Assembly (NCBI GenBank): GCA_030597485.1
Contig: JAUVRU010000024.1
Coordinates: 1 to 12,462, forward strand
Source of the DNA: Anaerolineae bacterium
Lineage (GTDB): Bacteria > Chloroflexota > Anaerolineae > 4572-78 > NAK82
Length of the DNA: 12,462 nt
Reading direction: 5' to 3'
Both the position numbers and the translations under genes were made by a program. Positions 1-12,462 of this stretch are shown piece after piece (within the stretch, counting starts at the first letter, position 1; every line of letters begins with the position of its first letter). Below the pieces are notes generated by a model. It saw nothing but the letters and a program-made list of their open reading frames with translations, was not told where the DNA came from and did not search any database.

Positions 1-1162
1 CAATGGGCACGGTCGTCGTGGCGCCGCCGTCGCTCCCTTCAACAACCACCGCCACCGCGAAACGGGGCGTGTCAGCCGGCCCGTAGCCCACGAACCAGCT
101 CAGTGGTCTATCTCCTGTCTCTTCAGGCAGGGCCACTCCAGACCACCCGGCGATGCCGTCAAAGCGAGTGGTCGCGGCTCGCAACGAAGCCGCCACATCA
201 GAGCCGAACGCCGGCTCTAAACTGGTGATCGATGATGGGCATGCCAGGTCGGGGATGGGCATTCGTCCGTCACCGGCAGCGGCCGCGGAGAAACGAGCCA
301 TGTGGAGCGGGGCCACTGCCAGATCCCGGTACGTGCCCGTGTCGGAAAAATCAGGCAGGATACCAGCGCCACCAGGCAGGTCAAACGGCGGCACGCGGTC
401 AAAACCCAGCTGGCGAGCGGTGGCAAGGTATCCCCTATCACTCAGGGGTGCCATCATGTCATCCAATGGCGTATTCAAGGGATTGGGCGGCGTCGTGATG
501 CCCGCGCTGAGAAGACCGGCAAGGCCAACCCAGCGAGCCAGATCGCCCACAGGATAGATGCCATGGGTGGCCCGGTTGAGCACGGGCGCATCAGGATTGG
601 TCGAAAGTGCATCCCAATCCTGGTCCAGCGTGTTCGGGTCGTAGGCAGGGTGGCTGACCAAAACGAGTACACTTCCCGTATTTATGTCAAGTACAACCAC
701 CGCCCCCTGGTGCCCTCCAAGCCCTTCGTCCGCTGCCCTCTGGGCATCGAGATCGACGCTGAGCGTCACGTCAAGCCCGGCCTGGGGACGATGCAACAGC
801 TGGTCGAGGCCTGTCAGCTCTCCCCGGAGCGCAGTATCGAACGCAGATTCTGCCCCTCCCGTACCGTGACGCAGACTGTAGTAGCCCACAGCGTGGGCAG
901 CTTCCGGATATGGATAGCGCCGCTGCACGATCCCCGCCCCCTCTCCCGAAACCGGCGGCAACTGGGAAAGGGCCAGGACCCGCCCCTGGCGGTCCAACAG
1001 ACGCCCCCGCCGCAAACGTTGCTCAGCCTGTACCAGCCGGGGGTTGTCATCCCGGGCGACCAGCTCCGGCGCACGGATTATCTGCCAGTAGAGTAGCCCG
1101 GCAGCAACCAGCACAAAACCCACAAAAACGGACCGGGCCAGCCGCCCGATGTTAGCCGCCAT
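1..1162 (-). CDS. Class B penicillin-binding protein (PbpA-like), degenerate transpeptidase, 3' end outside window
   Basis: The first 387 residues are in the window, with no stop codon. Residues 11-28 form a membrane anchor. A short stalk leads to 'RGRLLDRQGRVLA' (52-64) and 'YPEAAHAVGYYSLRHGTGG' (85-103), both typical of actinobacterial-type PbpA. The transpeptidase fold follows: 'GAVVVLDINTGSVLVLVSHP' (153-172), 'NRATHGIYPVG' (196-206), 'APLHMA' (284-289) and 'WFVGYGP' (356-362). Family members read YPPGSTFK at the active site. Here it is YPVGDLAR, so the nucleophilic Ser is Asp207 and the general-base Lys is Arg210. KTG reads W340-S341-G342. No good SxN is visible (S241-D-R is the nearest). 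The distance between the first and last motif is about 133 residues, against about 200 in M. tuberculosis PbpA. The ATG overlaps the end of the SEDS gene by 11 nt; an in-frame GTG at 1171 is an alternative start. The fold assignment is firm. Loss of transpeptidase activity is inferred. Confidence 0.88.
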   Translation of the reverse strand, partial: MAANIGRLARSVFVGFVLVAAGLLYWQIIRAPELVARDDNPRLVQAEQRLRRGRLLDRQGRVLALSQLPPVSGEGAGIVQRRYPYPEAAHAVGYYSLRHGTGGAESAFDTALRGELTGLDQLLHRPQAGLDVTLSVDLDAQRAADEGLGGHQGAVVVLDINTGSVLVLVSHPAYDPNTLDQDWDALSTNPDAPVLNRATHGIYPVGDLARWVGLAGLLSAGITTPPNPLNTPLDDMMAPLSDRGYLATARQLGFDRVPPFDLPGGAGILPDFSDTGTYRDLAVAPLHMARFSAAAAGDGRMPIPDLACPSSITSLEPAFGSDVAASLRAATTRFDGIAGWSGVALPEETGDRPLSWFVGYGPADTPRFAVAVVVEGSDGGATTTVPI

Positions 1163-2513
1163 GACCCACACCCGACCTCTTGCCAGAACCGCCGGCGTGC
1201 CCGGAAATGTGCAGTAGCAACCCTATCATGATCATGCTGGTCAGCAGTGAGCTCCCTCCGTAGCTGACAAAGGGAAGTGTCACCCCAGTCAACGGTATTA
1301 TCTTCAACGTGCCCAACATGATAACCAGCGATTGCAGCCCGAACAGCGCCCCGATGCCGGTGGCCAGCAGCTGATCAAACGGACGGCGCGCCTGCAGCGC
1401 AATGTGAAACGCACGGCTGATCAGCAAAGCCAAAAACAGGACGACGGCCAAGGCTCCCGCCAACCCATATTCCTCGCCAATGGCGGCAAAAACGAAATCG
1501 GTGTGGACAACTGGAATCGCGGTGGGCAGCCCCTGTCCCAGCCCCTGTCCCAGCATGCCCCCGCTGGCAAAGGCCAGCAGTGACTGAACGATCTGGAACG
1601 ACCGGCCGGACGCTTCGCTCCAGGGATTCCACCAGCCATCCACACGCAGGGCAACGTGGTCAAACAGCCGGTAAGCGACCGCGGCAGCGCCCGCCAACAG
1701 CAGCAAGCCGACCAGCACGTACCCACTCTGGCCGGTAGCGGCGTACAACATGGCCAGGAACACGCCGAAAAAGAGCAACGCCGCTCCCAGGTCACGCTGC
1801 CACATCAGCACAACGATGCTGAAACCCCACATCAGCAGCAGAGGCCCCAGAAAGGCCGGATGGGGGATCCGCCACCGTCCGATTCTGGCCTCAACCTCCA
1901 CCAGGGCTTCCCGTCGTTCCTCCAGATAGCTGGCCAGGAAGACAACCAGCAGCAGCTTGAGCAGTTCCGATGGCTGGAAATAGACGCCAAACGCCCCCAA
2001 CCACAGCCGGGCACCGACACCGCTGGGGTTCACGCCCAGCACCAGCGTCGTAGAAAGCAGAGCCAGGCCAGCAAAGAGCCAGGTATATCGGTAGCGACGT
2101 AGCCAACGCAAGCTGCGCGGTACCAGCGCAACCAGCAGCAACGCGCCAGTGCCCAGTACCAGCCACACCATCTGCCGGCTAAGGAAGATTGATGGCGCCA
2201 GCCGGGATACTTCTGCCAAGCCCAGCCCAGCCAGCATGCCGGCCAGGGGCAACAGGAGCCGGTCGTGAGCCGGCAGCCACCGGTGCAGCGCCCAGGCTCC
2301 TCCCCATACGCACAGTCCCAGCACGGCGACCGGGACAAATCGGCCTGGCAGAACAAGCCCTTCTTCTACCAGAGACAGCTGGGAGAAGGCGATGATACTG
2401 AAAAGCAAGGGGCCAGCAAGAAGCAACAGATACGGCGTAGATGGCACGGAGCGGGACGCAGAATCGTGGGCGCCCTCCATCCGCTGCTGCCCGCCGTGCA
2501 GTTCAGGCCTCAT
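1152..2513 (-). CDS. rodA: SEDS-family peptidoglycan glycosyltransferase (RodA/FtsW)
   Basis: This 453-residue polytopic membrane protein polymerises lipid II into glycan strands, working with a class B PBP. A hydrophilic tail of about 28 residues precedes the first membrane segment. Family signatures in order are 'GARLWLGAFGVYFQPSELLKL' (split here as GARLWL 167-172 and FQPSELLKL 179-187), 'WQRDLGAALLFF' (238-249), 'GRSFQIVQSLLAFASGG' (303-319), 'HTDFVFAAIGEEYG' (337-350) and 'PLTGVTLPFVSYGGSS' (407-422). Asp339 in HTDF aligns with the essential E. coli RodA Asp262, so the polymerase looks active. Its length matches mycobacterial RodA (about 469) better than E. coli RodA (370). I use rodA from gene context; FtsW cannot be excluded. 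An internal 12-bp tandem repeat (1528-1551) encodes LGQG-LGQG. The gene is followed by, and overlaps, the degenerate PBP gene. A weak AAGCAAGAAG ribosome site lies just before the ATG. Confidence 0.93.
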   Translation of the reverse strand: MRPELHGGQQRMEGAHDSASRSVPSTPYLLLLAGPLLFSIIAFSQLSLVEEGLVLPGRFVPVAVLGLCVWGGAWALHRWLPAHDRLLLPLAGMLAGLGLAEVSRLAPSIFLSRQMVWLVLGTGALLLVALVPRSLRWLRRYRYTWLFAGLALLSTTLVLGVNPSGVGARLWLGAFGVYFQPSELLKLLLVVFLASYLEERREALVEVEARIGRWRIPHPAFLGPLLLMWGFSIVVLMWQRDLGAALLFFGVFLAMLYAATGQSGYVLVGLLLLAGAAAVAYRLFDHVALRVDGWWNPWSEASGRSFQIVQSLLAFASGGMLGQGLGQGLPTAIPVVHTDFVFAAIGEEYGLAGALAVVLFLALLISRAFHIALQARRPFDQLLATGIGALFGLQSLVIMLGTLKIIPLTGVTLPFVSYGGSSLLTSMIMIGLLLHISGHAGGSGKRSGVGHGG

Positions 2514-2697: not shown

Positions 2698-3570
2698 CTA
2701 TGCGTCACCGGCGACGTGTTTGCCAACAAGCAGCCCCAGATCACTCTTGGCACCATCGGAGATTACGGCACGGTGCGTGATGATGGCATCGCGCAAAGCG
2801 TGATGACAGGCACAGTCAACCTGGTCGGGCAAAGCCTGCGCCAGGTACTTGATCGCCCGCTTGGCCACCTCCGTATTGGCCTCCAGATTCTTTATCACAG
2901 CGTTCACAGTGACATTCTCTTCCGTCTCGTGCCACACGTCGTAATCGGTAACGTGCGCCATGGTGGCGTAACAGATCTCAGCCTCCCGAGCCAGCTGCGC
3001 CTCGGGCGTGGCCGTCATGCCGATGATATCCATGCCCCACTGGCGAAAGACATTGCTTTCCGCTTTCGTGCTGAAACGCGGCCCCTCGACGGTGATATAC
3101 ACCCCACCCCTGTGAACGGTGGCTCCCGTGCTTCTCACGGCCTCATAGAGCAATTGTGACAGACTGGTGCAGAAAGGCTCGGCAAAGCTGATGTGGGCTA
3201 CCAGGCCTCCACCGAAGAAACTCAGTGGGCGCCCCCGGGTATGGTCAAACAGCTGATCAGGGATCACGATATCGCGGGGCGCATAGCCCTCGCGCAGACT
3301 GCCACAGGCACTGACAGAGATGATATGCTTGGCGCCCAATCGCTTGAGGGCATAGATGTTGGCCCGACTGTTAATCTCACCGGGGCTGATACGGTGACCG
3401 CGCCCGTGGCGGGGAAGAAATGCCACTCTTCGGCCACTGAGCGTTCCAATCACAACGGCGTCAGATGGGTCACCGAACGGAGTGGCGAGACTTACCTCGT
3501 CCACGTCTTCCAGACCCTCTATGTCGTACAACCCGCTGCCGCCAATCACAGCCAGTTTCACTGGTTCCAT
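2698..3570 (-). CDS. mtnP: S-methyl-5'-thioadenosine phosphorylase
   Basis: This 290-residue cytosolic enzyme cleaves methylthioadenosine, the by-product of polyamine synthesis, with phosphate to adenine and methylthioribose-1-phosphate (methionine salvage). The nucleoside phosphorylase fold is complete: phosphate loop GGSGLY (10-15), 'PRHGRGHRISPGEINSRANI' (53-72), 'EGPRFSTKAES' (162-172), M185-T186 and 'TDYDVW' (208-213). The paired Asp209/Asp211 fits 6-aminopurine (MTAP) rather than guanine/hypoxanthine substrates. A C-terminal Cys-Ala-Cys (253-255) recalls the CxC motif of archaeal MTAPII enzymes. The ATG has a near-perfect AGGAGGAAG ribosome site 15 nt after the fhaB stop codon, so it is co-transcribed with the FHA genes. 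It is metabolically out of place among envelope genes and occupies the slot where pstP lies in actinobacterial clusters. A close relative (MTI phosphorylase) is possible but less likely. Confidence 0.94.
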   Translation of the reverse strand: MEPVKLAVIGGSGLYDIEGLEDVDEVSLATPFGDPSDAVVIGTLSGRRVAFLPRHGRGHRISPGEINSRANIYALKRLGAKHIISVSACGSLREGYAPRDIVIPDQLFDHTRGRPLSFFGGGLVAHISFAEPFCTSLSQLLYEAVRSTGATVHRGGVYITVEGPRFSTKAESNVFRQWGMDIIGMTATPEAQLAREAEICYATMAHVTDYDVWHETEENVTVNAVIKNLEANTEVAKRAIKYLAQALPDQVDCACHHALRDAIITHRAVISDGAKSDLGLLVGKHVAGDA

Positions 3571-3585: not shown

Positions 3586-4068
3586 CTATTGCGTAGAATT
3601 CGCGTCTCTTTGCATCTTGAACACCATCTCCATCTGTCCGATGCCGATGACATCTCCATCAGCAAGGAGGACCGGTATGGTGACGGGAGCACCGTTCAGC
3701 CGGGTGCCATTTCGGCTGCCCAGGTCTGCAAGCCACCATTCCTCAACACGACGCTCGATCAGCGCGTGATGCAGCGAAACCCAGGCATCCAGAAGAACCA
3801 CATCGTTATCGGTGGCCCGGCCAAGGGTTGTTGGCGGAAACAGTGCAAAGGCATCCACGGCCTGGAGGGGCGCGTCGCCGCTCGCTGTCAGTCGCAGCCA
3901 GCCTGCGGGGACGTCAACAGGGAGCTGGTCCCTCTCTCCCGGACCTGGCTGCGCCCTCGCCGCTGAGCGCAGGTCACGCCAGATGACAAGGACCACAACC
4001 GCCAGAAACGCATAAAGCACTGCAACTGCCAGCAGTCGCAGTGCTAACAGTGTCCATTCCAGGCTCAC
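3586..4068 (-). CDS. fhaB: Membrane-anchored FHA-domain protein (FhaB/FipA-like)
   Basis: This 160-residue protein has one N-terminal membrane segment (about 7-30, then the positive RDLR), a flexible Gly/Pro linker and a C-terminal cytoplasmic FHA domain (about 80-150). FHA domains bind phosphothreonine peptides. The core pattern is present: LGRA (82-85), VSLHHA (98-103, for the usual VSxRHA) and 'DLGSRNGTRLNG' (115-126), so the Ser and Asn phosphate contacts are kept. Size and layout match mycobacterial FhaB (Rv0019c, about 155 residues), which acts in cell-division complexes downstream of Ser/Thr kinases. The start is GTG, sharing four bases (GTGA) with the fhaA stop, which indicates translational coupling. 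No kinase is in the window; one beyond the left edge, after the PBP gene, would fit the usual cluster. Confidence 0.9.
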   Translation of the reverse strand: MSLEWTLLALRLLAVAVLYAFLAVVVLVIWRDLRSAARAQPGPGERDQLPVDVPAGWLRLTASGDAPLQAVDAFALFPPTTLGRATDNDVVLLDAWVSLHHALIERRVEEWWLADLGSRNGTRLNGAPVTIPVLLADGDVIGIGQMEMVFKMQRDANSTQ

Positions 4069-4859
4069 GGTACTGTCTCAAGATCTGTCTGGCCTGCCGA
4101 CGGAGGCACCGGAGCCCCGGAGGGATCCTGGCTGGGTTTCTCGGCAGTCCACTCTACCGTCAGCACCACCCCCGCCAGACTGATGGCATCCCCGACCGCC
4201 AGGGGGACTTCCTCGTCCTCGCCAATGGGCTCACCGTTCAGATGGACAGCGTGACCGCCATCCACATCGCTCAGATAGTACTTACCCTCTCGCCAGCGCA
4301 ACTGAGCGTGCCGCCGCGAGACACGAGGGTCGTCCAGGATAATGTCATTGCTGAGAGCACGGCCCAAGCGCATCACCGGCCCACCCAGTGGAAATGCAAG
4401 GTTGCCCTGGCGGAGCAGCCATCGTTCGGCGCTGTCGGTGGATAGTGCCACGACCTCCGCTTCGCGCGTATCCTCACCGCTACCAGGCTCTGAAATGTGG
4501 GCCGCACGCACCTCCACCTGGCCGGCAGCTACATCAGCCGTCGGCTGTAGGGTAACCACCAGACGTCCTCTGAATCGCCCTCCCCTCTCTTCGGCCATAC
4601 GCTGCAGGCAGTGGAGAAAGCCGGTACGCAGGGCATCTTCATCAGCGCCAAGAGCGGAGTAGTCAGCCCGACTGAGGAAAACCCAGTATCGATTGGGGAA
4701 GATGAGCTGCCCGTCATCGCCGATGCACTGTGCGTCCTCAATCGCTCGCACCAGTCTACGAACCAGCTCACTGGGATGCAGAGGTGGGCGAAACAGCCGC
4801 CCAAACGTGCCCTCTACCAGGGATTCAGCCCACGCTTCAAACTCATCGAATCTGATCAC
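4065..4859 (-). CDS. fhaA: DUF3662/FHA-domain protein (FhaA-like)
   Basis: This soluble protein of 264 residues starts at GTG 4859. An FhaA N-terminal domain (DUF3662) spans about 3-125, with 'EGTFGRLFRPPLHPSELVRR' (16-35) as its hallmark. A linker follows, then an FHA domain (about 160-240) and a Pro-rich tail. FHA landmarks are LGRA (165-168) and VSRRHA (180-185), so the phosphate-binding Arg and Ser are present. The loop that normally reads GSTNGT is D-G-G-H-A-V, so the Asn that grips phosphothreonine is His203. A TTG at 4889 could extend the frame by 10 residues, but a perfect TATAAT lies between the two starts and the extension does not resemble the family, so I prefer GTG. Mycobacterial FhaA partners pseudokinase MviN and kinase PknB in wall synthesis; a comparable adaptor role is inferred here. 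Confidence 0.9.
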   Translation of the reverse strand: MIRFDEFEAWAESLVEGTFGRLFRPPLHPSELVRRLVRAIEDAQCIGDDGQLIFPNRYWVFLSRADYSALGADEDALRTGFLHCLQRMAEERGGRFRGRLVVTLQPTADVAAGQVEVRAAHISEPGSGEDTREAEVVALSTDSAERWLLRQGNLAFPLGGPVMRLGRALSNDIILDDPRVSRRHAQLRWREGKYYLSDVDGGHAVHLNGEPIGEDEEVPLAVGDAISLAGVVLTVEWTAEKPSQDPSGAPVPPSAGQTDLETVP

Positions 4860-4895
4860 GGTCCCAATTATAGCATAGAACGAGGGCAAGCCGCA
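4860..4895 (-). promoter_or_regulatory. Promoter of fhaA, probably giving a leaderless mRNA
   Basis: On the minus strand, a consensus TATAAT (4872-4867) lies 7 nt upstream of GTG 4859. A partial -35, TTGCGG (4896-4891), stands 18 nt further up. With start about 7 nt after the -10, transcription would begin at or within three nt of the GTG, leaving no room for a ribosome site, and none is seen. The -10 is clear; leaderless initiation is inferred. Confidence 0.6.
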
Positions 4896-6712: not shown

Positions 6713-7693
6713 CTACCCGCCAATCCTGACCATAGCACGGTTGGCCGGGAACACCCCCTGTTCCAGCTGGCTCCCGGGCGGCTTACACGCTACCGCTCGC
6801 CGAAGCAGCGCTGCCAGGTCCTGAATTGAGCCACCTCCCCGCAGGACGTCCCGCACGCTCAACTCTTCCTCTGACAGCAGACATAGTCGGATGCGCCCGT
6901 CGGCAGTCACCCGCAGATGGTTGCAGCTGTCGCAGTACGGGTGACTGACCGGGCTGATGAACCCCACGCTCCCTCGGCCCCCAGCGAGTCGATACAGCTG
7001 AGCTTCACCCTGCAGTTTGCCGTCGTTCAGGGGCAACAGGGGGCCCAACGCCCTTTCAATTCGGTCCATTGACTCCTGCGTAGGGACAAAGTGGTCAAGG
7101 GCAAACCCAGCCGGCTCCCCCAAGGGCATCAACTCGATGAAGCGCACGTGCCATTCGCGCTCAAGAGTGAGACGGGTCAGGCCTACCACATCCTCCTCGT
7201 TGTAATCTCGCACAACGACTGCGTTCAGTTTGACAGGCCGCAAGCCAGCGCGTTCTGCAGCTTCGATGCCCGCCCACACTTTGTGTACCACATTGAAACG
7301 GGTCAATCGCGCCAGATGAACCTGGTCAAGGCTGTCCACGTGGATGTTCACGCGACGTAGCCCCGCCTGTGCCAGGGGGTCGGCGAGCCACGGCAATCGT
7401 ATACCATTGGTGGTCATGAGCAACTCGTCCACGCCCGGCACTCCCGCCAGGCGTTCGACGATCTCCACAATGTCGCGGCGCAAGGTGGGTTCACCGCCCG
7501 TCAACCGCAGTTTGTCGAATCCCAGGGAGACCGCTGCCTGGGCCAATTGCTCAATCTCGAGCGGTGTCAACAGGTCCTCACTCGGCACAAAACCACGCTG
7601 CTCTACAGGCATACAGTACCTGCACCGCAAATTGCAGCGGTCAGTGACTGAGATGCGAAGGTAGCTGATCTGACGTCCGTAGTGATCCTTCAC
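6713..7693 (-). CDS. moaA: GTP 3',8-cyclase MoaA (radical SAM, molybdenum cofactor synthesis)
   Basis: MoaA converts GTP to 3',8-cyclo-7,8-dihydro-GTP, the first step of molybdopterin synthesis, and uses two 4Fe-4S clusters. The radical-SAM cluster ligands are C20, C24 and C27 in 'CNLRCRYC'; GGEP (66-69) binds SAM. The second cluster uses C254, C257 and C271 ('CDSCNHLR...IRLC'). The C-terminal Gly-Gly (325-326, RIGG) essential in this family is intact. I chose GTG 7693, giving 326 residues. It follows GGAG by 8 nt, and 'KDHYGRQISYLRISVTDRCN' (2-21) starts like typical MoaA. The frame stays open to a GTG at 7759, but the extra 22 residues are not family-like. No other mo genes are in the window. 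The gene probably depends on the promoter at 8035-8006. Confidence 0.95.
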   Translation of the reverse strand: MKDHYGRQISYLRISVTDRCNLRCRYCMPVEQRGFVPSEDLLTPLEIEQLAQAAVSLGFDKLRLTGGEPTLRRDIVEIVERLAGVPGVDELLMTTNGIRLPWLADPLAQAGLRRVNIHVDSLDQVHLARLTRFNVVHKVWAGIEAAERAGLRPVKLNAVVVRDYNEEDVVGLTRLTLEREWHVRFIELMPLGEPAGFALDHFVPTQESMDRIERALGPLLPLNDGKLQGEAQLYRLAGGRGSVGFISPVSHPYCDSCNHLRVTADGRIRLCLLSEEELSVRDVLRGGGSIQDLAALLRRAVACKPPGSQLEQGVFPANRAMVRIGG

Positions 7694-7819
7694 TGGACAT
7701 GCTCCAATCGAGTGCCGGTGGAGAAGTAGTAGCTGGCACGTATTTTGCCTATCCGCCACGGAGATGATACAATACGCTCTCAGCGCATAGCACGCTGTGT
7801 GTAGCTCCGGTCCACAATG

Positions 7820-8035: not shown

Positions 8036-8143
8036 ATGGGAAATGCGTGGGAACACTTTTTGTGGAACCGGGAATACGGTCAACGTATGACACGACGCCT
8101 CAGCGCCCGGAAGCGAAACGCTGGACTGCGCGACCTCGCATGC

Positions 8144-8151
8144 AAGGAGGT
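8144..8151 (+). promoter_or_regulatory. Ribosome binding site deciding the nuoBCD start
   Basis: AAGGAGGT is a full anti-16S match, 12 nt before ATG 8164. The spacing is longer than usual, but no start codon in the nuoBCD frame lies between, and an earlier ATG (8140) overlaps the site itself. Confidence 0.7.
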
Positions 8152-8163
8152 CAAGCCCCGACA

Positions 8164-10656
8164 ATGACAACAGCCTCCCCACATCCGAGCCAACCGCCAA
8201 CCGTACCAGAAGATCTCAAACGCAACGTGTTGGTCGCACCACTGGATGCCATATCCACCTGGGGCCGGATGTACTCGCTCTGGCCAATGGCGTTTGGGCT
8301 GGCATGCTGCGCCATCGAGATGATGGCTGTCCAGACCGCTCGCTATGACATGTCCCGCTTTGGGGCAGAGTTGATGCGTCCCTCCCCCCGGCAGGCTGAC
8401 CTGCTCATCGTGGCTGGCACCGTTACCAAGAAGATGTTACCCCAGATCGTGCGGCTGTACGATCAGATGGCCGAGCCGAAGTACGTGCTGGCGATGGGAG
8501 CCTGCGCCACCGCTGGCGGCCCCTTCAAGGAGGGGTATAACGTGGTGTCAGGCATTGACAAGTACCTGCCCGTGGACGTGTACGTTCCTGGTTGCCCTCC
8601 TCCCCCGCAGGCCTTGCTGCAAGGCCTGATCAAGCTTCAGGAGAAGATCAAGAGCCAATCGCTCCTTGGCGTGCCCTGGTATCGCAAGGACCAGCGAAAC
8701 GAGGCTGTCCCGGTTCCGCTATACGGGCCAGACATCATTGATCCCCGCCAGATTCCGATTATCAAGGCAGAACTGGACAGGCAGCGCCTTGAGCGTGATC
8801 GTCAAGAACCTGAGGAAGAGACAGGCTCGGCCGGGGATGAGACACAAGAGAAAGCCACAAGGCGAGCGGTCAAGCCACCAAAGCTGCCGACGTGGGACCT
8901 CACCCCCGAGCCTGAAGCACAGGCATTGGCCGACCGCATCAACCAGGAAATTGGGGAAGGCTCCGTCTCGCCCGAAAAGGACACATTGGTCGTCGATGCG
9001 CAGCGCCTGATCCCTGTGGCCACGTACCTACGCGACACAGAAGACCTGGCCTACGATTACCTGTCGAATGTGACTGGCGTTGACTATTTGGACCGTGATC
9101 TCCGCTTCGAAGTCGTGTATCACGTCTACGCCACCAGCCGAGGTGGGGGTCCGGTCGTGCTTAAGGCACGAGCGGACGGCCAGAACCCCAAGATCCCCTC
9201 TCTGGTTTCCATCTGGCCCAGCGCCGACTTCCAGGAACGAGAGATCTGGGATCTCTATGGGATTCGTTTCACCGACCACCCAAATCTCAAGCGGATCCTG
9301 CTGTGGGAGGGCTTCCACGGCCACCCTATGCGCAGGGACTGGAACGAAGCATACTACGAAGAACCCACCAAACCCTTCAACAGCCGCTGGCCAGCGGGAC
9401 ATCACCAATTGGCCGACTCGCGCAACCCGTACAACCGCAACGTCGCCTATCCAACCCAGTACCCAGACGGCGAAGAGTGGGATCCTGAGAATTGGGACCC
9501 GATGGAAGAACGGCTGTCCGTTGTGGATGTCGAAGAAGTGCCCCACACGGGCATGCGTACCCAACGGATCATGGTCAATGTGGGTCCCCAGCACCCCAGC
9601 ACCCACGGCGTCTTCCGAATGGTTCTCACTCTCAACGGGGAGACAGTAGTGAACGCCGAACCAGTGTTGGGCTACCTGCACCGCAATCACGAGAAGATCG
9701 GCGAGCGCAACAATTGGCTCATGAACATGCCGTACACAGACCGCCTCGACTATATGAATGCGATGGGCAATAACTTCGGCTACGCCCTGGCGGTCGAGAA
9801 GATGATGGGCACCGAGGTGCCTGAACGGGCAGAGTACCTCCGCGTTATCATGGCAGAATTGAACCGGGTGTTCAACCACATGTCGTTCGCCGGGTTCTAC
9901 ACTAATGAGTTGGGCGCCGCCTTCACCCCATTCCTCTATGCATTCAGAGAACGTGAGCTGATACTCGACCTGTTCGAAGAGGCCAGCGGGTCGCGGATGA
10001 TGTGCAGCTATCTGCGGTTCGGCGGTGTGGCCCGCGACGTAAGCGAAGACTGGCTGGACCGTGCCCGTTATCTGGCCCAAGAGCGCTTGCCCCGCAAGCT
10101 CGACGAGTTTGAGCGGCTGCTCAACCAGAACGAGATATTGGTTTCCCGCACCAAGGGGGTCAGTGTCATCTCGCCCCAGGCGGCCATCGCTTATGGCATC
10201 ACCGGCCCTATGCTGCGTGCTTCGGGAGTGCCTTACGACATCCGTCGCGTTGAGCCATATTCGATCTACGATCGGTTCGACTTCAAGATACCGCTCTTGT
10301 CCAACGGCGACCTGTATGACCGATATTTGATCCGCATATTGGAGGCCCGTGAGGCAGTGAAGATACTCAATCAGGCACTGGATCAGATACCCGGGGGGCC
10401 TATCCAGGGGGGCAAGAAGGCCTGGCAGACGCGGGTGCCCGCCGGTGAAACCTACGCCCGCATCGAGCATCCAAAAGGAGAGCTGGGGTATTACCTGGTG
10501 AGCAACGGCACGGCCAATCCGTGGCGCTACCGTGTTCGGGCTCCATCTTTCGTGAACCTCACCGCCTTTGGCGAAATGTGCAAAGGCCACAAAGTCGCAG
10601 ATACCGTCGTCATCCTGGGAGCCGTTGACATCGTGCTGGGAGAGGTAGACAGATAA
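8164..10656 (+). CDS. nuoBCD: NuoB-NuoC-NuoD fusion, quinone-site module of complex I
   Basis: One 830-residue polypeptide joins three complex I subunits. NuoB (about 20-188) has the N2 cluster ligands C48, C49, C114 and C144, and '[11 protein letters not shown]'. A charged linker (about 189-245) follows. NuoC (about 250-405) has '[12 protein letters not shown]' (358-369), HPNLKRIL (372-379) and GHPMRRDW. An acidic linker leads to NuoD (about 463-830) with '[10 protein letters not shown]' (473-482), '[12 protein letters not shown]' (524-535) and the final '[12 protein letters not shown]'. His481 and Tyr530 match the conserved quinone-headgroup residues. All catalytic features are intact, so N2 and the ubiquinone/menaquinone pocket are built within one chain. 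CD fusions are well known (E. coli); BCD fusions are rare. NuoA, normally just upstream, is absent. The stop overlaps the nuoI start by one base (TAATG). Confidence 0.95.
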
Positions 10657-11246
10657 TGCTAGGACTCGGCATCGCCAAAGGACTGTCTGTCACGTTGAAG
10701 CACTTCGTTGAAACGTACATCGAGGACCTGCGGTACTTCCCACGCCGCTACAGTGAAGAAGCGATGGAGTTTCGCCAGAGCGTGAAGGGACGTGGCCTCT
10801 TCACCGTCCAGTACCCCGAACAGGAACTGCCTGTGCCGGAGAGTTTCCGATACATTCCCTTCCTGGTCTACGATGAAGATGGGGAGTCAGGTGAGAAGAA
10901 GATTCGCTGCACGGCGTGTGGCATATGTACCAAGGTGTGCCCTCCTCAATGTATCTGGATCGTACGCGCCAAGGACGAGAAGGGCAAACCGGTGTCCCAG
11001 CCGGCTGAGTTCTACATCGACATTGATATATGCATGAATTGCGGCTTCTGCGCTGAATTCTGCCCCTTCGACTCGATCGTCATGGACCACAACTGGAAGA
11101 TGGCAGATTATGAGCGCCTTGAAAGCCACATATTCGACCTGCATACACTGCTCAAGCCAGCCAGCTATTACCAACAGATTCGCCCCGTCCAGTATGCAGA
11201 ACGTCAGGCCGGCAAGAAAAAGGAGCGCAAGGGCAAGGAAGTGTGA
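10656..11246 (+). CDS. nuoI: NADH-quinone oxidoreductase subunit I (two 4Fe-4S clusters)
   Basis: This 196-residue ferredoxin-like subunit carries electrons through clusters N6a and N6b to N2 in NuoB. The N-terminal amphipathic part (1-65, '[20 protein letters not shown]' at 15-34) is typical of NuoI and lies on the membrane face. The two CxxCxxCxxxCP sites are '[12 protein letters not shown]' (about 86-97) and '[12 protein letters not shown]' (about 127-138). The tail is Lys-rich. ATG overlaps the nuoBCD stop (TAATG), and its own TGA overlaps the secA ATG (TGATG), so all three genes are translationally coupled. With nuoBCD it forms the Q-module. No genes for the membrane arm or the NADH module are adjacent; they must be encoded elsewhere if a whole complex I exists. 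Confidence 0.96.
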
Positions 11247-12462
11247 TGTTCAAGAATGTTCTCACCAAGGTGTTGGGGGATCCCAATCAGAAAACAATCG
11301 ATAGACTGACCCCGTTGGTTGAGGAGGTCAATGCGCTCGAAGCAGACATGCAGCGCAGGAGCAATGACGAACTGCGCCAAATGATGGCTGACTTCCGCGC
11401 CGATATCGCGCGGGCGACTTCTTCAGTTCGTAGCCAGCTTGAGGAAAGTCGCAACCAGCGCGATGTGGCCAGCGGCGACGAGCGCCGTCGGCGGGAGGTC
11501 GAGGTCGAGCGCCTGGAAAGAGACCGGCTCAAGCTGGAAGAGAGCTTGATGCAGGATATGATGCCCCACGTCTTCGCAGCGGTGCGGGAGGCAAGCGTTC
11601 GCGCCACCGGCCTCCGGCACTATGATGTGCAGACAGTGGGCGGCGCAATCCTCCACCTCGGCAACGTGGTTGAAATGCGCACGGGAGAGGGAAAGACACT
11701 GGTGGCCGCCATGCCAGTGGTGCTCAACGCTCTGGCAGGACGAGGCGCCCACCTGGTCACCGTGAACGACTACCTGGCCAAACGTGACACTCAGTGGATG
11801 GGTCCCATCTACCACCTACTCGGGATGTCTGTGGGTGTGATCCAATCGGCAGGCGGTGGACATCCCGACGAAGCGTCGTACACGTTTGATCCAGACTTCC
11901 AGGCGGCGGATGACCGTTACCTTTATCTTCGACCTGTCTCCCGTCGCCAGGCGTACCACTGCGACATCACCTACGGCACGAACAACGAGTTCGGATTCGA
12001 TTACCTGCGTGACAACATGGTCTACGATCTGAGCCAGCTGGGCCAACGAGAACTCCACTACGCGATCATTGACGAGGTAGACAACATCCTCATTGATGAG
12101 GCACGTACTCCCCTCATCATCTCTGGCGCCGCCGAGGAGAGCAGCAGTCTGTATCGGGAGTTTGCCAGCGTTGTACGCCAGCTCAAGCCCAGCAGTCATG
12201 CCAGTGTGGAAGCCAAAGCGCCAGACGGTGACTACAGCGTTGATGAGAAGGCACGCGTGGTAACACTGACGGAATCGGGCGTCGAGAAAGTCGAGCGGGT
12301 TCACGGCATAGACAACCTTTACGGGCCAGAGCACTGGCAGAAAACCCCTTATCTGGACAATGCTCTGCGCGCCCACGTGCTTTACCAGCGTGATCACGAT
12401 TATCTCGTCAAGGACGGCCAGGTCATCATAGTTGACGAGTTCACTGGGCGAATGATGCTTGG
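11246..12462 (+). CDS. secA: Protein translocase ATPase SecA, 3' end outside window
   Basis: The first 405 residues are present (a full SecA has about 800-1000). SecA drives preproteins through SecYEG with ATP. Nucleotide-binding domain 1 shows Walker A 'MRTGEGKT' (144-151), '[11 protein letters not shown]' (171-181), '[16 protein letters not shown]' (242-257), Walker B IIDEVD (274-279) followed by Asn280 where most SecAs have Ser, and '[12 protein letters not shown]' (283-294). Part of the preprotein cross-linking domain follows to '[10 protein letters not shown]'. Between '[12 protein letters not shown]' and '[12 protein letters not shown]' lies an Arg/Glu-rich segment (about 52-103), predicted coiled coil, much longer than the short loop of E. 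coli or Bacillus SecA. I believe it is a Chloroflexota feature. AAGGAAG precedes the ATG, which overlaps the nuoI stop by one base. Confidence 0.97.

Follow-up and report, generated by a model that had tools for sequence, protein, structure and literature searches.

The stretch analysed here (the window) is the whole 12,462-nucleotide contig C399 (JAUVRU010000024.1) of an Anaerolineae bacterium in the phylum Chloroflexota (assembly GCA_030597485.1), a fragmented genome of 2.94 Mb in 545 contigs that is 72% complete. It begins with a gene for a PbpA-type class B penicillin-binding protein (PBP) that, judged by its motifs, has lost its transpeptidase active site, and directly upstream of it lies a gene for a SEDS-family glycan polymerase (Table 1). 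The two are separate overlapping frames and are not fused. The PBP start lies within the final SEDS codons, an 11-base overlap that suggests that translation of the two genes is coupled. The contig ends at base 1 of the window, so the last few residues of the PBP are missing; a complete relative, P0001, has 396 residues and is 89% identical to the window PBP.

Table 1. Features of the window discussed in the text (coordinates are those of the window)
Feature	Position	Strand	Basis
Class B PBP homologue of PbpA type that is without a transpeptidase active site; 387 residues, truncated at the C-terminus by the contig edge	2..1162	-	
Predicted N-terminal membrane anchor helix, residues 2-35	1058..1159	-	AlphaFold2 (AF2) model
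Pedestal / dimerisation region, residues 37-130, PF21922-like	773..1054	-	PF21922, 24.9 bits (cut-off 27)
SxxK position, reads Asp207-Leu-Ala-Arg210	533..544	-	profile alignment
Shortened stretch, about residues 225-240, without the SxN segment that active PbpA has	443..490	-	
KTG position, reads Trp340-Ser-Gly342	137..145	-	profile alignment
SEDS-family glycan polymerase (FtsW/RodA)	1152..2513	-	PF01098, 248.9 bits
Asp339 codon, conserved Asp of SEDS motif HTDF	1497..1499	-	
mtnP-like phosphorylase gene, between SEDS and FHA genes	2698..3570	-	name taken from relatives
FHA-domain protein, FhaB-like	3586..4068	-	PF00498
FhaA-like protein, FhaA_N + FHA	4065..4889	-	PF12401 and PF00498

The transpeptidase fold is present in the window PBP. 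Its anchor has a counterpart in the hydrophobic N-terminus of the aligned orthologs, and the PF21922 pedestal is annotated in its nearest homolog, P0001. A sequence-only reading of this DNA had proposed that the protein stays an open frame with SxxK and KTG replaced, no clear SxN left and the domain shortened by about 70 residues, and each part of this proposal held. No stop interrupts the 387 codons. A profile alignment to the solved PbpA of Mycobacterium tuberculosis places Asp207 on the Ser and Arg210 on the Lys of STFK, and Trp-x-Gly onto KTG. The SCN motif of the M. tuberculosis protein falls within the stretch deleted here, and the first and last motifs are 133 residues apart vs. 202 in M. 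tuberculosis PbpA, i.e., 69 fewer. The same reading had allowed for a true Ser-x-x-Lys elsewhere in the protein, but the 387 residues contain no lysine at all. A scan of all 387 found no [KHR][TS]G, and the sole S-x-N (Ser187) lies upstream of the active-site position. With no S..K and no lysine, a hidden active site elsewhere in the protein was ruled out. By its active-site motifs the window PBP is a pseudo-transpeptidase. Because the active-site serine is missing, it is predicted to be insensitive to beta-lactams. Of its 87 near homologs, all have Asp at position 207, seven have some S..K, two have some K[TS]G and 17 have no lysine.

Orthologs were taken from 60 relatives, from a 396-genome sample of the class and from a second look at 47 of the latter. 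The class is the Anaerolineae, as judged by the names on related records (Anaerolineae, Anaerolineales, Ardenticatenia, Thermoflexales or just Chloroflexi), and the loci from the 396-genome sample are from among the matches listed, down to an E-value of 5e-89, with a profile (A2) made mostly of dead copies. We called a copy intact if it has both SxxK and KTG, and dead if it is without the Ser and Lys. The resulting set holds 162 ortholog loci in 30 families, many of them with one or two loci only; it excludes the window's own locus, L234 (which gave no N-terminal match) and refetched loci of one genome (L027-L029, L031-L034). Dead copies make up 151 of the 162 loci, ten are intact and one (L266) ends ahead of the site. 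By family, 24 of the 29 that are readable are dead in all sampled members, four are all intact (f35, f39, f44, f49) and one is mixed (f9). Outside the class, 80 genomes in the rest of the phylum had a match, of which 71 were read and nine left; 69 of the 71 fetched orthologs are intact. Of the other two, L379 has SIFK and ends before KTG, and L327 is dead. Orthologs in named records outside the phylum are all intact (14/14). A further 66 named loci, which overlap the class genomes, include 12 intact and 31 fused copies.

The second look covered 37 unresolved genomes, mostly one per family, and ten further picks. Eight of the 47 matched the whole N-terminal model, and in G057 a contig end truncates the match. 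The remaining 38 gave no match that starts ahead of model position 44 and, within the limits of incomplete assemblies, seem to lack the PbpA-SEDS module. As a control on the calls we used paralogues: SxxK was called by pattern in 20 of 27 loci (with two repeats; no KTG was found in L283), six of the seven uncalled loci showed SxxK and KTG on reading, and L270 stayed uncalled. The dead ortholog outside the class, L327 (G416:C456:56168-57890), lies in an 887-residue frame. The genome with the dead fusion L016 has, at L254 (G022:C3:1183255-1189371), a further PbpA-like protein that is intact, accompanied by a SEDS frame in the locus and placed on a long branch.

The sequence-only reading ascribed the open frame to selection rather than decay, and the conservation of the replacement residues bears this out. 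In an alignment of 88 rows (the window and its 87 near homologs) Asp207 is found in 88, Arg210 in 84 (Lys in three, Gln in one) and Trp340 in 87. Between dead orthologs the ratio of nonsynonymous to synonymous substitution (dN/dS) comes to roughly 0.1-0.25, an approximate figure from the 11 of 14 pairs that gave a ratio (one pair was saturated, and six of the 11 have an NG86 dS above 1). Close relatives with an intact ortholog, which that reading had named as counting against it, did not appear: all five same-family orthologs have Asp-Leu-Ala-Arg, and in a sixth same-family relative (G001, 63% complete) a full-length match was not found. Sequencing or assembly error was ruled out, as the same site is found on separate contigs and genomes. 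Plain decay, i.e., a pseudogene in progress whose frame is still open by chance, would account for the missing active site, the shortened domain and a catalytic half that drifts faster than in live orthologs (see below). It is scarcely credible given the 151 of 162 orthologs that are dead, in long open frames where read, the low dN/dS, the near-invariant replacement residues and the recurring fusion to SEDS. For the family as a whole a pseudogene was ruled out by the conserved replacement residues together with the low dN/dS. Selection, not decay, is thus strongly supported by these sequence comparisons.

The dead state appears to be old. Our main trees used the SEDS and PBP N-terminal columns and excluded the transpeptidase half. 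In the 58-row and 34-row trees all dead copies fall in one starred group, which includes the live L040; the other live copies lie outside. L040 belongs to the mixed family f9 and is a close relative of L024 (G030:C189), a dead copy that has a large deletion, with a Gly-Glu-Leu rich stretch in place of the SxxK region, and retains KTG. We rejected one shared change as the origin of all dead copies, since 0 of 200 bootstrap trees have one change and dead L024 sits beside live L040; two changes are forced on the 34-row tree. We infer two losses, one for the large dead group and one for L024, with loss and regain as the alternative. Three losses are possible, and the unity of the large dead group has a support of 81/61 only. 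A tree of the PBP N-terminus only (95 rows) is less resolved and needs four changes; the live families f35, f39, f44 and f49 lie among the dead at open forks and L327 is without a firm place. This tree is compatible with the larger data set without confirming its order.

The SEDS partner was said to keep its catalytic Asp, and it does. The Asp of HTDF is found in 220 of 221 SEDS rows, some of which are one genome fetched twice, and the remaining row is masked sequence. From work on RodA and FtsW we take this residue, Asp339 in the window, to be the catalytic Asp of the SEDS protein. Across the 162 class loci, SEDS and PBP are in one reading frame in 61, a separate SEDS frame is in the locus in 91, and ten are undecided. 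In family f3, which is of the same order as the window, all eight loci are fused. Pfam confirmed SEDS plus PBP in eight of the ten frames tried; L034 and L022 are not fusions. On the 83-row tree the fused or split state changes at least six times. A protein search with one fusion returned 3478 proteins at an E-value of 1e-20 or better, and among the matches listed 120 of 120 have a SEDS domain plus PBP-dimer or transpeptidase domains. We examined 107 fusions of at least 800 residues, chosen by closeness to a dead fusion: PG-SxxK or KTG is found in none, and Asp-Leu-Ala-Arg in 79. An AF2 model of a fused relative has a pLDDT (predicted local distance difference test) of 84.5 and a pTM (predicted template modelling score) of 0.72. 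Live fusions occur outside the class, in L104, L138 (titled Dehalococcoidia; the fusion was seen by Pfam) and L143. L132 is also a SEDS-PBP fusion with an intact SxxK, like these three.

Relative to the pedestal, the catalytic half of the PBP has diverged much further among dead copies than among live ones. We compared pairs matched on pedestal identity (0.4-0.5); identity over residues 206-387 is 0.47 in live pairs (n = 108), 0.26 in dead pairs (n = 5366) and 0.40 within the window's order (n = 53), for pairs that are not independent and dead copies that differ in length. Over residues 131-205 the corresponding values are 0.51, 0.44 and 0.53. A docking region that is held while the catalytic half loosens is what a non-catalytic activator predicts.

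Enzymes that could take over cross-linking are encoded elsewhere in the genome. An FtsI of 614 residues in a division and cell wall (dcw) cluster has SxxK and KSG. An FtsW gene lies beside murD- and murG-like genes, and a RodA-like fragment, mreB and mreC are also present; the window pair is a third SEDS-PBP set of this genome. Transpeptidase domains with SxxK and KTG are found on contigs C17, C487 and C58. Pfam identifies the C17 protein as a class A PBP, and by length only we take the other two to belong to class A as well. There are three YkuD matches. With these other SEDS-PBP sets and transpeptidases present, loss of the window transpeptidase need not mean loss of cross-linking. PF00905 matches number 6 to 10 per genome in 15 genomes with a dead PbpA (this one included, and pieces of dead proteins counted), 5 or 6 in six genomes with a live PbpA and 3 to 7 in four without an ortholog in this set, all small numbers.

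We consider it likely that the window PBP is an old pseudo-transpeptidase retained as a non-catalytic activator of its SEDS polymerase, with other enzymes doing the cross-linking. This PbpA-type PBP has kept its anchor, pedestal and overall fold and lost its catalytic residues, and this state has been inherited across much of the class. The anchor helix and pedestal would most probably dock on the adjoining SEDS protein and hold it in a polymerising state. Cross-links in the resulting strands would be made by other transpeptidases, i.e., the dcw FtsI, class A PBPs and YkuD-type enzymes. A dedicated activator that does not cross-link fits best because the SEDS Asp is kept, because the catalytic half outpaces the pedestal in drift only in dead copies, and because many relatives fuse SEDS and PBP.

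Several observations weigh against an activator pure and simple. The PF21922 score of 24.9 bits is slightly below the cut-off of 27. Dead pairs show somewhat lower identity in the anchor and in residues 131-205, too, and the drift is relative to the pedestal, which gives a direction, not a rate, and does not prove that the pedestal is unchanged. The catalytic half is retained as a folded domain, although its loss would be expected if only anchor and pedestal mattered. Residues 201-220, the old active-site block, have the highest conservation of all 20-residue blocks among the near homologs (0.89). Retention of the fold together with this block indicates that the domain probably does something more, and a second task, as a sensor or a structural brace, is a rival to consider; f3 shares Asp-Leu-Ala-Arg while f2 does not.

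If the second task is binding, the Asp-x-x-Arg and Trp-x-Gly site would be a repurposed, non-catalytic site that takes up a regulator, lipid II or nascent peptidoglycan, and the domain, in reporting to SEDS, would be a sensor rather than a passive activator. The near-invariance of Asp207, Arg210 and Trp340 and the conserved block would follow from this, as would the recurrence of Asp-Leu-Ala-Arg in seven of eight f3 loci and in the 79 fusions noted above. However, the motif is found in none of the four loci of f2, which like f3 is of the same order as the window family f1, and the SxxK position of other dead families reads, e.g., Ala-Ala-Leu-Glu, Leu-Leu-Leu-Gln or Gly-Asn-Ile-Tyr, so no ligand site is common to the dead copies. 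In f3, Phe or Leu stands where f1 has its Trp, and a structural salt bridge alone could explain the conservation. We therefore regard a repurposed binding domain as rather unlikely. The same near-invariant Asp, Arg and Trp could also point to new chemistry, with the rebuilt site catalysing another peptidoglycan reaction. The residues form no recognised catalytic constellation and the site is not conserved across other dead families, which makes this very improbable. A broader version of the activator reading, in which the whole clade gave up cross-linking long ago and survives only as a built-in or adjoining SEDS activator, and the dead site of f1 and f3 was rebuilt as a conserved regulatory Asp-x-x-Arg element, is a serious possibility that we would place a little below an even chance. 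Under that version, this SEDS-class B PBP unit would polymerise glycan without the coupling to cross-linking.

The genes beyond the pair include two FHA proteins, which may exert some control over it. At the position equivalent to the mtnP-like gene, PNP_UDP_1 is found in L296, L297 and L071. The rest of the window was judged by eye. A MoaA-like radical SAM frame lies at 6713-7759, and 8047-10656 is one long frame of seemingly several joined complex I subunits (NuoB-, NuoC- and NuoD-like). After it come frames that look ferredoxin-like (10656-11246) and SecA-like (11243-12460).

Class B PBPs are described as switching on their SEDS partner via anchor and pedestal (PMC8078798; PMC10449877). PBP2B made dead by mutation still supports division (PMC8078798), and SpoVD S311A, also engineered dead, does so in part (PMC12713402). 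Natural fusions of SEDS and PBP in a single open reading frame are already in print, as "examples exist" (PMC10449877). The portions of PMC10449877, PMC8078798 and PMC12713402 available to us make no mention of a dead PBP part in natural fusions. Among the titles and abstracts listed in our searches of open-licence literature we found no naturally dead class B PBP family and no dead SEDS-PBP fusions, which does not prove their absence. Both the fusion of SEDS with PBP and PBPs made dead by engineering have thus been described before, and a long-kept natural dead branch is what those searches did not find. Whether the essential job of a class B PBP is cross-linking or SEDS activation has so far been argued from engineered dead mutants. 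In 24 of the 29 readable families that test appears to have been made by evolution and its outcome retained, with the live orthologs as controls. The residues still conserved after loss of catalysis would mark the activating surface. For structural studies the fusions offer SEDS and activator in one natural chain, with the live L104, L132, L138 and L143 as experimental counterparts, and the SEDS machines with a dead PBP are predicted not to bind beta-lactams.

Among known systems, RodA-PBP2 and FtsW-FtsI pair a SEDS protein with a cognate class B PBP, as in the window; PBP2 and FtsI are active transpeptidases, unlike the window PBP. PbpA of M. tuberculosis (3upp, 3un7) is the class B PBP of an FHA-linked RodA-PbpA module. 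It has SxxK, SxN and KTG and, by the entry titles, was solved as a beta-lactam acyl-enzyme, whereas the window PBP is without all three motifs. After PbpA, the nearest structures by Z are two sets of transpeptidase domains named "peptidoglycan glycosyltransferase", 4mnr of Eggerthella lenta and 4r1g/4n1x of Atopobium parvulum. The A. parvulum entries were, by their titles, solved with penicillins, and so have a live active site, unlike the window PBP. The A. parvulum chain numbering (523-936) suggests that these structures, too, come from the C-terminal portion of a long SEDS-PBP protein. Natural SEDS-PBP fusions in one frame occur among the relatives of the window gene, whereas the window pair itself is split.
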